Shown here piece after piece: positions 1,079 through 14,440 of a DNA stretch of 55,085 nucleotides (position 1 is the first letter of the stretch; every line of letters begins with the position of its first letter). Origin of the DNA: Planctomycetota bacterium (GTDB lineage: Bacteria > Planctomycetota > Planctomycetia > Gemmatales > Gemmataceae). Below the pieces are notes generated by a model. It saw nothing but the letters and a program-made list of their open reading frames with translations, ran no database searches and was not told the origin of the DNA. The translations under genes and the position numbers were made by a program. The DNA lies in the NCBI GenBank assembly GCA_021807595.1, contig JAKBCS010000015.1, positions 1 through 55,085 on the forward strand, written 5' to 3'.

Positions 1079-1858
1079 CTACTCCCGTGGCATTTTCTGG
1101 TCGATGGCTTCGAGAACTTCGGAAGGCTGAAGGCGAGTCAAAAAACGATCCGGTCGAAAGAGCCAACGGACGACGCCTTGGGAATCCACCAGGATCGTAG
1201 TGGGTGCGGCCGTGTCGCCGCCGTCGGGCGCGGAATTGGGATGGAGGACATCCAACGTCTCCGAGAGCTTTTTGTCGTCGTCGTAGACGACAAGCAAATG
1301 CGGATATTCGGTCTGCGTGACCCTGGCATTGTCTCGATCTTCCACCGAGATTGCCACGATTTGAACTTTTCTCTTCTCAAACTCTTGCCACTGATCTTCG
1401 AGCTGACCCAGCTCGGTCATGCAGACCCCTCACCACCGACCGCGAAAGAATACCAGAACGTGTCTCCGATCGCCCTTAAGCTCCGAATTCGTGAAAGCTG
1501 AGCCATCCGACCGATTACCTTGGAAGGCGGGGATCGACTTCCCGACCCGAACAGGCCCTTTATATTCCGGCAGTTTGATGATTACCGCCAGGCCATACCA
1601 CTGAATTGCAGCAAACAGGGCAACGAACACAAGGGCGGCCCATCTCGAAACGGTTCGACGGCGAACGACGGCCGCGAGGAGGCAGAGAACGGCCAGCGTG
1701 GCGAGAGCGGGACTGTACCAAGGTACCGCCAAGTGTTTTAGCGCAAACTCGACCGCGAAGAGCGTCGGTCCCAGCAGGCAAAGAAAGACGCCTGCCCAGA
1801 AAAAAGCTCGACCGGATCGGCGCGGATCAGGGTTCGAGGCGTTCGCCGGCTCGGCCAT
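1079..1858 (-). CDS. Membrane-anchored thioredoxin/AhpC-TSA-fold protein, probable selenoprotein (in-frame UGA at U-x-x-C)
   Basis: Reading down the minus strand from the ATG at 1858 (GGAGG about 9 bases upstream), the frame is open for 142 codons, meets TGA at 1432-1430, and continues in the same frame for 116 more codons to the stop at 1079. The protein has two or three membrane segments (about residues 16-36, 46-62 and 71-91), then a thioredoxin-like domain. That domain shows HVLVFFRGRW, the UGA, then GVCMTELGQLEDQW, and later the cis-Pro region DTAAPTTILVDSQG. AhpC/TSA-like relatives read LVFFRGxWCPxC at this place, so UGA replaces exactly the first active-site Cys (residue 143; second Cys 146). 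Conserved sequence on both sides and an SECIS-like hairpin support selenocysteine rather than decay. Selenocysteine machinery is not in the window. The gene is convergent with the MoaD-like gene. Confidence 0.75.
1399..1415 (-). promoter_or_regulatory. Putative bacterial SECIS element
   Basis: A perfect 7-bp hairpin lies just downstream of the in-frame UGA. Read on the minus strand it has arms CGAGCTG and CAGCTCG around a GGT triloop. The first loop base is 22 bases after the UGA, and the loop begins with G. This fits the accepted bacterial SECIS layout: a short stem 3' of UGA, with a G among the first loop bases and about 16-37 bases between UGA and loop. The hairpin also encodes the conserved ELGQLE residues, so some of the pairing could be coincidental. 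Confidence 0.6.
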
Positions 1859-11013: not shown

Positions 11014-12468
11014 ATGACGATGCACCCCAGACGCCCATTTCTCGGCGGCTTAGTACGGCCGTTTTGGTTGCTGGCCGTGGTCCTATACACGAGCGGTTGT
11101 CAAACTCCCCCCACGCCGCCGGCCGGTTGTACTTCGAGAACGGCGGACGCCAATCGCTTTCGCATCCTCGCTCGGCAGGCGTTGTGCGATAGCGGAGAAG
11201 AGGTTGCGCACCATCCACTGCGCGCCGGTCGAACCGTTTTGGCCGATCAGGCGGCATGGATCTCTTCTGCCAGCCGAGGCATCTTCTGCAAACGGCTGGG
11301 CATGCGCTTGCACGGTACTCCGCCTCCTCTGAGCGGTTGCTCCGACACTCTCGATCCGGCTTTGATCGAGACGGACTTACAACCGGCCAGCGTGCATCTG
11401 TATCGCAACGGACCAGAGGCACTGGCGCTGCTCGAACACTTGATCGACTCGGCGCAAAGCCGCATTGATGTCTTAATTTTTACCTGGGAGAACGACTCGG
11501 TGGGTTGGAACGTCGCCCGCCGCTTAGCAGCGGCAGCGGCGTCGAATCGGCGCGTCCGTCTCTTGGTGGACGGCAGCGCGAACTTGATCTTCGCTCCCGC
11601 GCCTCGGCCGAACTCTCCCCTCAAGCAGAGCGACGACCAGAAAACCGTGGGCGAACTCAATCGAGTTCTCTGTTGGCTACGGCGACAACCGAACGTCGAG
11701 TTGATCCGCAACCGCAGTCCGTTCGCGCACTTCGACCATCGCAAATTGGTCTTAATCGACGGCCAAACGGCTTGGGCGGGGGGGAGAAACTTCACCGACT
11801 CGGCCTTCTACGAACGCCACGACATCACTTATACCCTGCAAGGTCCGCTCGTCACTCAATGGCAAGAGATGTTTGAGAAATCGTGGCGGCTACAGGGGGG
11901 CAATCCGGCGTGTATCTCGTCGCAGACACTTCCCATCGTCGCCAATGCAGCAGGCCGCCTCGTCGCCAATTCGCCGACGCACCACAGTCTGCGTAAGTCG
12001 CTGTATCGCGCGCTCGACGGAGCCAGACATTCCATTCTCTTGGAAAACCCCTATCTGACGGACAATGGAGTGATAACAAAGCTGGCTCGTGCCCGCCGGC
12101 GCGGCGTCGATACGCGCATCCTGTTCACGATCCAATCCCAGACCGAGTCGATCGACCACGCGAACAAGGTGACGGCCAATCGTCTGCTCGCAGCTGGGGT
12201 GCGCGTCTATCTGTATCCCGGTCGCATCCACACGAAAACCGCGTTGATCGACGGCTGTTGGGCCTATATGGGCAGCGGCAACTTCGATCTGCTCAGCCTC
12301 TATCGCAACCACGAACTCGGCATCGTCTTCGGGCCGGGGCCGATTATTCAGGATCTCGAACAAACTCTGTTCATTCCCGATTTCAACCCAGAGTATGAAT
12401 TGCACGCTCCCTTGCCGTTGACCGCCGAGGACTATGCCTACGAGTTGCTCGCTGGGATGTTTTTCTAA
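11014..12468 (+). CDS. Phospholipase D-family lipoprotein (cardiolipin-synthase-like)
   Basis: This 484-residue protein has a lipoprotein signal with lipobox-like TSGC at about residues 26-29. The two HKD motifs of the PLD superfamily are intact: HRKLVLID near residue 243 and HTKTALID near residue 406, each followed by a Gly-rich GxxN segment (AGGRN and MGSGN). Family members are cardiolipin synthases, phospholipases D or nucleases; the two-domain arrangement and the membrane anchor suit a phosphatidyltransferase in the envelope. The start has AGGAAG upstream. About 100 residues between the lipobox and the first catalytic domain are of unknown purpose. The gene is followed by a REP-like palindrome. 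Confidence 0.87.
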   Translation: MTMHPRRPFLGGLVRPFWLLAVVLYTSGCQTPPTPPAGCTSRTADANRFRILARQALCDSGEEVAHHPLRAGRTVLADQAAWISSASRGIFCKRLGMRLHGTPPPLSGCSDTLDPALIETDLQPASVHLYRNGPEALALLEHLIDSAQSRIDVLIFTWENDSVGWNVARRLAAAAASNRRVRLLVDGSANLIFAPAPRPNSPLKQSDDQKTVGELNRVLCWLRRQPNVELIRNRSPFAHFDHRKLVLIDGQTAWAGGRNFTDSAFYERHDITYTLQGPLVTQWQEMFEKSWRLQGGNPACISSQTLPIVANAAGRLVANSPTHHSLRKSLYRALDGARHSILLENPYLTDNGVITKLARARRRGVDTRILFTIQSQTESIDHANKVTANRLLAAGVRVYLYPGRIHTKTALIDGCWAYMGSGNFDLLSLYRNHELGIVFGPGPIIQDLEQTLFIPDFNPEYELHAPLPLTAEDYAYELLAGMFF

Positions 12469-12484
12469 CGGAGCGGCGCTCTTT

Positions 12485-12513
12485 CCCTCTCGCCTGAGTA
12501 CGGGGGAGAGGGG
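12485..12513. repeat. REP-like palindrome (GTACTCA-loop family), copy 2
   Basis: The arms are CCCTCTCGCC and GGGGAGAGGG with one mismatch; the loop TGAGTAC is the reverse complement of the GTACTCA loop of copies 1 and 3. It lies 17 bases after the PLD gene and could act as its terminator hairpin, although no T-run follows. Confidence 0.65.
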
Positions 12514-12601
12514 AGCGGTTGTTCGGTTGGTCGATCCATTCTCGTTGTCGATTCGTAATACTATCTATGGATATCGACTAACGGACAATGGATGCGAATT
12601 T

Positions 12602-14440
12602 GTGCTTGGACCGATCTTCAATCGCGAGTTTTTGACCGTGCCGCGCCGGGAGAATCACTACCTGGCGCGGGCGGCTTATCTGGGTACGCTGTGGATCATC
12701 TGCGTGACGGCGTGGCTGGCCAGCGGCGGTCTGTGGCGCGCCGAGACTTTGGGCGATTCGGCCCGATTGGGGCCGGTACTGTTTCGCGTTCTCACCTACG
12801 TTGAATTGGCCTTGTTCTTGTTCTTCGCCGCTCTGTCCGCCGTTGCCGCCGTGTCGCAAGAGAAAGATCGGCGCACGTTCATTCTCCTTCTCATCACCGA
12901 TCTGCGCAACCGCGAAATCGTGATCGGCAAACTCTTGGGCAGCCTGCTTCCGATCGTCCTCTTGATGGCGGCGACATTTCCACTCCTGATGGCGCTGGTG
13001 TTGCTCGGAGGCATCGATCCCCGACAGGTTTGGCAATCGGTGTTGATCGTGGCGGCCACCTCGTTGGCAGCCGGTTCCTTGGGCGGACTCGTGGCGCTGT
13101 GGCGCGACCGCACCTTTCAAGCATTGGCGCTGACCGTGCTGCTCCTCGTACTCTATCTGGGTGCCGCGAACGGATTGACGCTCCTTCCGATGTTGACCTC
13201 GCACGTTACCCCGGAGGGGATAAACCTGTGGCAAGCGCGGCTCGATCCCTTCCGCGCCCTGTCCTCCGTGCAAGATCCGTCGTCGCTGTTGGGGCCGGGA
13301 CTATCGCCAGCCTATGTCTTCACATGGGTGATGTTCGCCTTTTCCGTAATGCTCAATGCGTGGGGATTGTCTCGTCTGCGCGTGTGGAACCCGAGCGGCG
13401 AACCGATTATGCAGCGCGAGCAACCCGAAGAAGCCGAGGACAAAGAGCGCAGCCTCGCCGCCGACGCGAAGGGCCGCGCCAGCGTTCACGCCGCTCCGGG
13501 AGGACTTCGCCGGGTCGGTCCCAACCCAATTCTTTGGCGCGAGATTTCCACGAGAGCTTATGGCCGGCGACCGCTGTTGGTCAAGACGGCCTATTTCATC
13601 GTACTGGGTCTCATCTGCTGGTCGGCACTGGCTCCCGTGTTGATCGAACATCAAAGTTGGGCTTTCGCTGCGGCGTCGGGTCTAATCCCCGTATGCGTAC
13701 TCAGTCTCTTGTTGGCGGCGGCACAGGCGGTGACGTCCATCACCTCGGAGCGCGACACCGGATCGCTCGATCTGCTGCTCGTTACCGATCTGACGGCGAA
13801 AGAGTTCATATTCGGCAAGCTCGGCGGGATCGTCTACAACACGAAAGAGTATCTGCTGCCGCCCTTAATTTTGGCGGCGGTCTATGCGGCTTATGGACTC
13901 TTGGCCACACCGCCCCTCGGACATCCGGAACTGCGCCCAAGCATGAACGCGATGTCGCTACTGTGCATCGGCGGCGGTACGGTCGTACTGTTGGCCTTCG
14001 CCATGCTTTTGGGCATCCACGTTGCCTTGCGAACGCCGAACAGCCGACTCGCCATCATTCATACGCTCAGCACCATTTTCTTCCTCTCCGTGGGCACGAT
14101 GGTCTGTGTCGCCCTGATTCTGATCAATGGGCGATTCGAATATCAGTGGGGCAGCTTTGTCTTTTTCTTGGCCGCTGGCGTTGGCGGTTTCTGGTGGGTG
14201 CTTTCGGGAGAGCGACCCTCCGGCGCACTGACCTGCGCCAGTTGGTTTTGTCCGTTGGCCGTGTTGTATACCGTGATGAATGTCCTCGTAGCCAAGCCCG
14301 GATCGCAAGAGTCGGCCGATCCATTGATTCCCTTCCTGGTAATCTCCGGCGCGTTTGGCTTCGCGGTGGCGGCTATGTTGGTACCGCTGCTCAGCGAATT
14401 CGACGTGGCCATGGGACGCACCTCCGGCGGAGCGGATTGA
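12602..14440 (+). CDS. ABC-2-type transporter permease with two homologous halves
   Basis: This 612-residue protein has about 12 membrane helices. The cytoplasmic signature of ABC-2 permeases occurs twice: SQEKDRRTFILLLITDL with a GKLLG end, near residue 84, and TSERDTGSLDLLLVTDL with GKLGG, near residue 382. The halves are joined by a charged linker (residues 260-300). So this looks like a fused, internally duplicated permease. The GTG at 12602 is chosen because the product then begins MLGPIFNREF, as other planctomycete permeases do; the open frame continues upstream through the REP palindrome without sense. No ATPase gene is adjacent, so the ATP-binding partner must be encoded elsewhere. 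The substrate is unknown. Confidence 0.83.
   Translation: MLGPIFNREFLTVPRRENHYLARAAYLGTLWIICVTAWLASGGLWRAETLGDSARLGPVLFRVLTYVELALFLFFAALSAVAAVSQEKDRRTFILLLITDLRNREIVIGKLLGSLLPIVLLMAATFPLLMALVLLGGIDPRQVWQSVLIVAATSLAAGSLGGLVALWRDRTFQALALTVLLLVLYLGAANGLTLLPMLTSHVTPEGINLWQARLDPFRALSSVQDPSSLLGPGLSPAYVFTWVMFAFSVMLNAWGLSRLRVWNPSGEPIMQREQPEEAEDKERSLAADAKGRASVHAAPGGLRRVGPNPILWREISTRAYGRRPLLVKTAYFIVLGLICWSALAPVLIEHQSWAFAAASGLIPVCVLSLLLAAAQAVTSITSERDTGSLDLLLVTDLTAKEFIFGKLGGIVYNTKEYLLPPLILAAVYAAYGLLATPPLGHPELRPSMNAMSLLCIGGGTVVLLAFAMLLGIHVALRTPNSRLAIIHTLSTIFFLSVGTMVCVALILINGRFEYQWGSFVFFLAAGVGGFWWVLSGERPSGALTCASWFCPLAVLYTVMNVLVAKPGSQESADPLIPFLVISGAFGFAVAAMLVPLLSEFDVAMGRTSGGAD

Follow-up and report, generated by a model that had tools for sequence, protein, structure and literature searches.

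Selenoproteins of the Prx-like thiol:disulfide oxidoreductase type, with a UxxC motif in a PF00578 domain, have been catalogued (PMC9312934, PMC13188914) and correspond to 'Prx-like 1' of PMC2398784. A 'Redoxin family protein' selenoprotein (PF08534, UxxC) is also described, with HEU0032618.1 as its representative (PMC13188914). Planctomycete selenoproteins were reported in 2016 from the Porphyra-associated P1 and P2 (PMC4807772); the main text of that report names FdhA and FmdB, and the word redoxin is absent there. The DNA analysed here is a stretch of 55,085 nucleotides from a Planctomycetota bacterium (the window), in which a preliminary description had proposed a selenoprotein. Its statement that the protein family includes selenoproteins in bacteria agreed with the catalogued UxxC Prx-like and redoxin proteins (PMC13188914), and the present case extends an already known type of selenoprotein. 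Its suggestion that such a protein may be undescribed in planctomycetes held for the membrane-bound subfamily only, since selenoproteins of planctomycetes had been reported in 2016 (PMC4807772). In the open-access literature searched, no paper described a membrane-anchored UxxC redoxin of Planctomycetota.

The window protein shared with the Prx-like UxxC selenoproteins the same Pfam domain, the UxxC motif with Sec in first position and a predicted role in thiol redox chemistry, but it carried a three-helix N-terminal anchor; the catalogued members were compared by domain and motif. With the 'Redoxin family protein', compared by its description, it had in common UxxC and a match to Pfam Redoxin (67.5 bits, cut-off 26.6, E 1.4e-18). 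ResA, TlpA and DsbE are likewise membrane-anchored thioredoxin-fold proteins with WCxxC, and the PTT segment of the window protein was aligned with ResA; the window protein differed in having Sec for the first Cys and three predicted helices. No NCBIfam model scored above its cut-off (ResA 47.8 of 170, DsbE 25.1 of 123), and membership in the ResA/TlpA/DsbE equivalogs was rejected at scores this far below the thresholds. The fold was also common to the peroxiredoxins (Bcp, AhpE, AhpC) and the TxxU Sec-peroxiredoxins, and Cys146 aligned with the Cys of TxxC; however, Sec stood in place of the Thr/Ser of TxxC and not of the peroxidatic Cys, so a peroxiredoxin in the strict sense, with TxxC or TxxU, was rejected. 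As far as the main text of their report goes, P1 and P2 shared with the window's organism the phylum, Sec machinery and the presence of several selenoproteins.

Gene structure, domain and predicted topology

As shown in Table 1, the gene lies on the minus strand. The frame ran from ATG 1858 to the stop at 1081-1079 and comprised 259 codons plus stop, with TGA 1432-1430 as its single internal stop. The preliminary description had noted a frame with an internal UGA at 1079-1858 and left the strand unstated; the frame was confirmed, and the plus-strand frame over the same positions was rejected as a gene because it is different and non-homologous. A plausible ribosome-binding site, GGAGGGG, was found upstream of ATG 1858. 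The UGA (residue 143) stood in the context FFRGRW-U-GVCMTELGQLE, which places W-U-G-V-C in the WCxxC column of AhpC-TSA/Redoxin, at the first active-site Cys of a thioredoxin-type CxxC as first described. Of the 28 longest non-overlapping ORFs in the window, 13 ended in TGA; elsewhere in the window TGA is thus an ordinary stop, and global reassignment of UGA was rejected.

Table 1. Coordinates of the predicted selenoprotein gene and its features in the window.
Feature	Position	Strand	Evidence
Predicted selenoprotein gene, membrane-anchored AhpC-TSA/Redoxin	1079..1858	minus	Frame with one TGA, Pfam, orthologues with TGA
In-frame UGA, predicted Sec143, first position of W-U-x-x-C	1430..1432	minus	Sequence; homologue column
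Cys146, second position of UxxC (putative resolving Cys)	1421..1423	minus	Invariance, PDB profile alignments
Candidate SECIS hairpin CGAGCUG-GGU-CAGCUCG	1399..1415	minus	Shuffle test, UGA vs Cys homologues, covariation, bSECIS model
AhpC-TSA/thioredoxin-fold domain, residues 105-232	1163..1546	minus	Pfam, AlphaFold, Foldseek
Predicted transmembrane helix 1, residues 17-39	1742..1810	minus	AlphaFold helix and hydrophobicity
Predicted transmembrane helix 2, residues 48-66	1661..1717	minus	AlphaFold and hydrophobicity
Predicted transmembrane helix 3, residues 70-93	1580..1651	minus	AlphaFold and hydrophobicity

The Pfam matches to AhpC-TSA (78.4 bits, cut-off 26, E 5.8e-22) and Redoxin covered residues 105-237, spanning the UGA, and the protein thus combined an AhpC-TSA domain above the Pfam cut-off with a UxxC motif. 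The AlphaFold model (mean pLDDT 94.8) showed three N-terminal helices followed by a thioredoxin-fold domain, and in Foldseek this domain matched PDB peroxiredoxins with a TM-score by target of up to 0.87. An N-terminal transmembrane anchor had been proposed before; an anchor was indeed predicted, with three helices and not one. Arg-rich stretches were located ahead of helix 1 and in the segment linking helices 2 and 3, and by the positive-inside rule they suggest that the redoxin domain is extracytoplasmic. Two or more hydrophobic helices preceded the domain in 40 of the 67 UGA-containing homologues described below, as a rough count in which some loci were shortened. In profile alignments with PDB structures, Sec143 aligned with the first Cys of WCxxC in ResA and with the Thr/Ser of peroxiredoxin TxxC/SxxC, while Cys146 fell at the peroxidatic Cys of peroxiredoxins. 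From this alignment to both ResA and the peroxiredoxin Cys, the protein is most likely a membrane-anchored selenol/thiol oxidoreductase, whose substrate may be a disulfide or a peroxide.

The UGA codon and the SECIS hairpin in homologues

The search of 59 related genomes gave relatives that were full-length and had a single internal TGA, with identities of 83% for one in the same genus and of 52%, 41-44% and 28%. Counting the window's own genome, eight genomes kept the TGA, over the range from 83 to 28% identity, and the U column, W142 and C146 were invariant in the alignment of these relatives. A search across the phylum gave matches in 86 of 392 genomes, and every internal stop among the matches listed was TGA. 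From this search and the relatives, 90 homologues were extracted by the motif [W/G/F/A/C]-[U/C]-x-x-C; at the same codon, 67 had TGA and 23 had Cys (18 TGC, 5 TGT). An in-frame UGA where homologues have Cys was therefore present, as the preliminary description had asked to be checked. In a tree that omitted two doubtful rows of the 23 Cys homologues, Sec and Cys were exchanged at least 4 times on supported branches and, most simply, 7 times; the clade of the window gene itself was all Sec, with seven family members and two from outside the family. In plasmid and phage collections, only redoxins at 27-33% identity were found.

When the window gene was compared with its 83% identical same-genus orthologue, dN/dS was 0.19 in the part downstream of the UGA and 0.30 in the upstream part. 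The value after the UGA indicates that the downstream part is translated and selected, and selection on this part, estimated from the sequence pair, is purifying. The sequence after the UGA is thus conserved, as it had seemed from the window alone.

Downstream of the UGA, a hairpin of 7 bp with loop GGU was found, its stem starting 15 nt past that codon, as already noted in the preliminary description; its energy was -9.1 kcal/mol, and the first loop G was the 22nd nucleotide downstream of the UGA, with 21 nt in between. The published bSECIS model (PMC13188914) allows an apical loop of 3-9 nt, a stem of 4-16 bp, G in the first two loop bases, a spacing of 16-37 nt from the UGA and an MFE of at most -7.5 kcal/mol. 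With a loop of 3 nt, a stem of 7 bp, a spacing of 21 nt and the energy given above, the hairpin fell within all of these limits, which answered an earlier call for a SECIS search.

A stretch of 66 nt, folded as a whole, showed no excess stability against shuffles (z -1.07), and a positional test was therefore used, in which the best hairpin at the same distance in each homologue was compared with synonymous-codon shuffles. The median was -8.9 kcal/mol in 67 UGA genes (shuffle mean -3.6) and 0 kcal/mol in 22 Cys genes (shuffle mean -1.6), a difference between the two groups with Mann-Whitney p = 3e-10. A hairpin with an energy of -5 kcal/mol or lower was present in 58/67 UGA homologues vs 2/22 Cys homologues, and all 58 of the former had G in the first two loop positions. 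In 28 UGA genes with the hairpin in the same register, 96.9% of cells were paired vs 76.5% in shuffles (0/500 shuffles as high), a figure biased upward because these genes were picked for forming this hairpin; the positional comparison of UGA with Cys genes used the unselected set and is free of this bias. Two-sided changes were seen in 5/7 pairs of the same 28 genes, the first loop G was invariant, and the covariation score was 0.505, compared with 0.173 +/- 0.026 for shuffles and no more than 0.11 after sliding. In other members the hairpin was displaced by about three bases, again with G atop the loop. That the hairpin keeps its place, is lost in Cys homologues and covaries exceeds what chance would give.

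Selenocysteine machinery and alternative readings

The window's own genome (G000) is a draft of 282 contigs, 95.5% complete. SelB was identified on contig C81 with 385.8 bits together with a neighbouring piece (cut-off 242) and no stop over 642 codons. SelD was identified on contig C218 (G000:C218:694-1620, minus) with 351.8 bits (cut-off 125); it had an in-frame UGA in CAG-U-AGK, which is a second Sec codon in this genome and was the same in other genomes of the genus. SelA was found in the draft neither by profile nor by DNA search. A SelA match above the family cut-off was present in 50 of 59 related genomes, including 3/3 of the genus, and some of the weaker matches may be other aminotransferases. 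Base 1 of contig C81 corresponded to the selA start in G003, a sister genome with selA placed after selB, so the break of the SelB contig at this point explains why selA is missing from the draft.

For tRNA-Sec, neither the RNA model nor a DNA search gave a hit in the draft; the best eight of the sub-threshold matches were ordinary tRNAs (Ser, Leu, Tyr, Gly; ARAGORN) and were rejected. All three same-genus genomes contained tRNA-Sec with 73-75 bits and anticodon TCA (ARAGORN). The flank of the G003 tRNA-Sec had a counterpart on C179 of the window's own genome and ran there into unrelated DNA; the organism's own tRNA-Sec, if present, therefore lies elsewhere, and a gap at C179 is not proven. 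We take the absence of SelA and tRNA-Sec to reflect incompleteness of the draft, true loss being the less probable alternative, weighed below. Of the machinery that was to be checked, SelB and a Sec-type SelD were thus present, while SelA and tRNA-Sec were absent from the draft, though found in 3/3 sister genomes. In G003, the tRNA-Sec abutted an integrase ORF and a mobile-element-like ORF, as if at an integration site (G003:C209 9792-9887 and 9830-11302), and this region had no counterpart in the draft. Separately, a dispersed inverted repeat of the CCCCTCTCCCCTGTACTCAGGGGAGAGGGG type, roughly 150 bases long, had >100 matches in G000, often at contig ends (for example C70:10366-10528 and C213:2384-2528); CCCCTCTCCCCTGTACTCAGGGGAGAGGGG-type repeats may be the cause of assembly breaks in this genome.

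The missing SelA and tRNA-Sec would fit a UGA that is a real stop, in which case the gene would be a pseudogene or would encode two proteins. The second of these would restart at ATG 1420, which lies 9 nt past the UGA and opens an ORF of 113 residues. A real stop is very improbable, because tens of relatives keep the same TGA and show no alternative to it other than Cys, the downstream dN/dS is low, the SECIS hairpin is kept only in UGA members and the active site would be divided between the two proteins. Homologues ending at TGA 1432-1430, which the preliminary description had named as evidence against a selenoprotein, were not seen, as the relatives continued to full length. That a TGC/TGT codon was misread in sequencing or assembly has in its favour that the genome is a draft of 282 contigs, and nothing else; the TGA also occurs in the 83% identical orthologue of another assembly and in more distant ones, and with the same codon in independent assemblies we regard such a misreading as excluded for practical purposes.

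A recent loss of selA and tRNA-Sec, which would leave the gene, selD and selB as decaying relics, agrees with the failure of profile, RNA model and DNA searches to find either component and with the G003 tRNA-Sec site not being kept. Such decay is nevertheless quite improbable: SelB has no internal stop, the UGA codons of SelD and of the redoxin gene are both kept, the gene is under purifying selection, and the SelB contig ends exactly at selA.

It is thus highly probable, from the conserved TGA with Cys as its alternative, the SECIS hairpin and the presence of SelB and SelD, that the gene encodes a selenoprotein, as first interpreted, with SelB/SECIS-directed Sec143 in the UxxC centre of a membrane-anchored extracytoplasmic redoxin. 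The UGA/Cys exchange, SECIS hairpin, family, SelB and SelD were read from sequence; Sec insertion, topology, substrate and partner are predictions. SelB would deliver Sec-tRNA to the ribosome at UGA 1432-1430, guided by the hairpin just downstream. How SelB recognises a SECIS varies with the species. The three N-terminal helices would hold the protein in the membrane, with the AhpC-TSA/TlpA-like thioredoxin-fold domain on the extracytoplasmic side. Sec143, as the putative nucleophile of the UxxC redox centre, would attack a disulfide or peroxide substrate; Cys146 would resolve the selenenyl-sulfide, and a thiol partner would re-reduce the Sec143/Cys146 pair.

More tentatively, and with somewhat less than even confidence, the homologues may form an undescribed subfamily of membrane-anchored extracytoplasmic UxxC redoxins across Planctomycetota, with Sec commoner than Cys in the homologues recovered, and with Sec and Cys exchanged repeatedly. 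If this is true, selenium chemistry would operate on the extracytoplasmic side in a phylum that is not known to be rich in selenoproteins. The gene itself would add a membrane-bound UxxC redoxin to the Planctomycetota selenoproteins. Gene finders that take UGA as stop would end the protein at residue 142 or annotate it as two fragments, and the same miscalling would apply to the 66 UGA relatives. The UGA/Cys pairs with covarying SECIS hairpins would provide a clean set for studying SelB recognition.

Other loci were also observed. The window contained a DoxX-like gene (303-722) and after it a small ORF (739-1035) with GG at its end, MoaD/ThiS-like by eye and without a Pfam match; in the alignment to the sister contig, the stretch with the DoxX-like gene did not align and the small GG-ending ORF did. 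In G006, a redoxin-like frame with one TGA (G006:C81:10807-11223) directly adjoined selB (11316-13193). In the sister genome G002, a TlpA-like protein (G002:C24:11496-11861) read WASW-U-GPC and is a further candidate selenoprotein.
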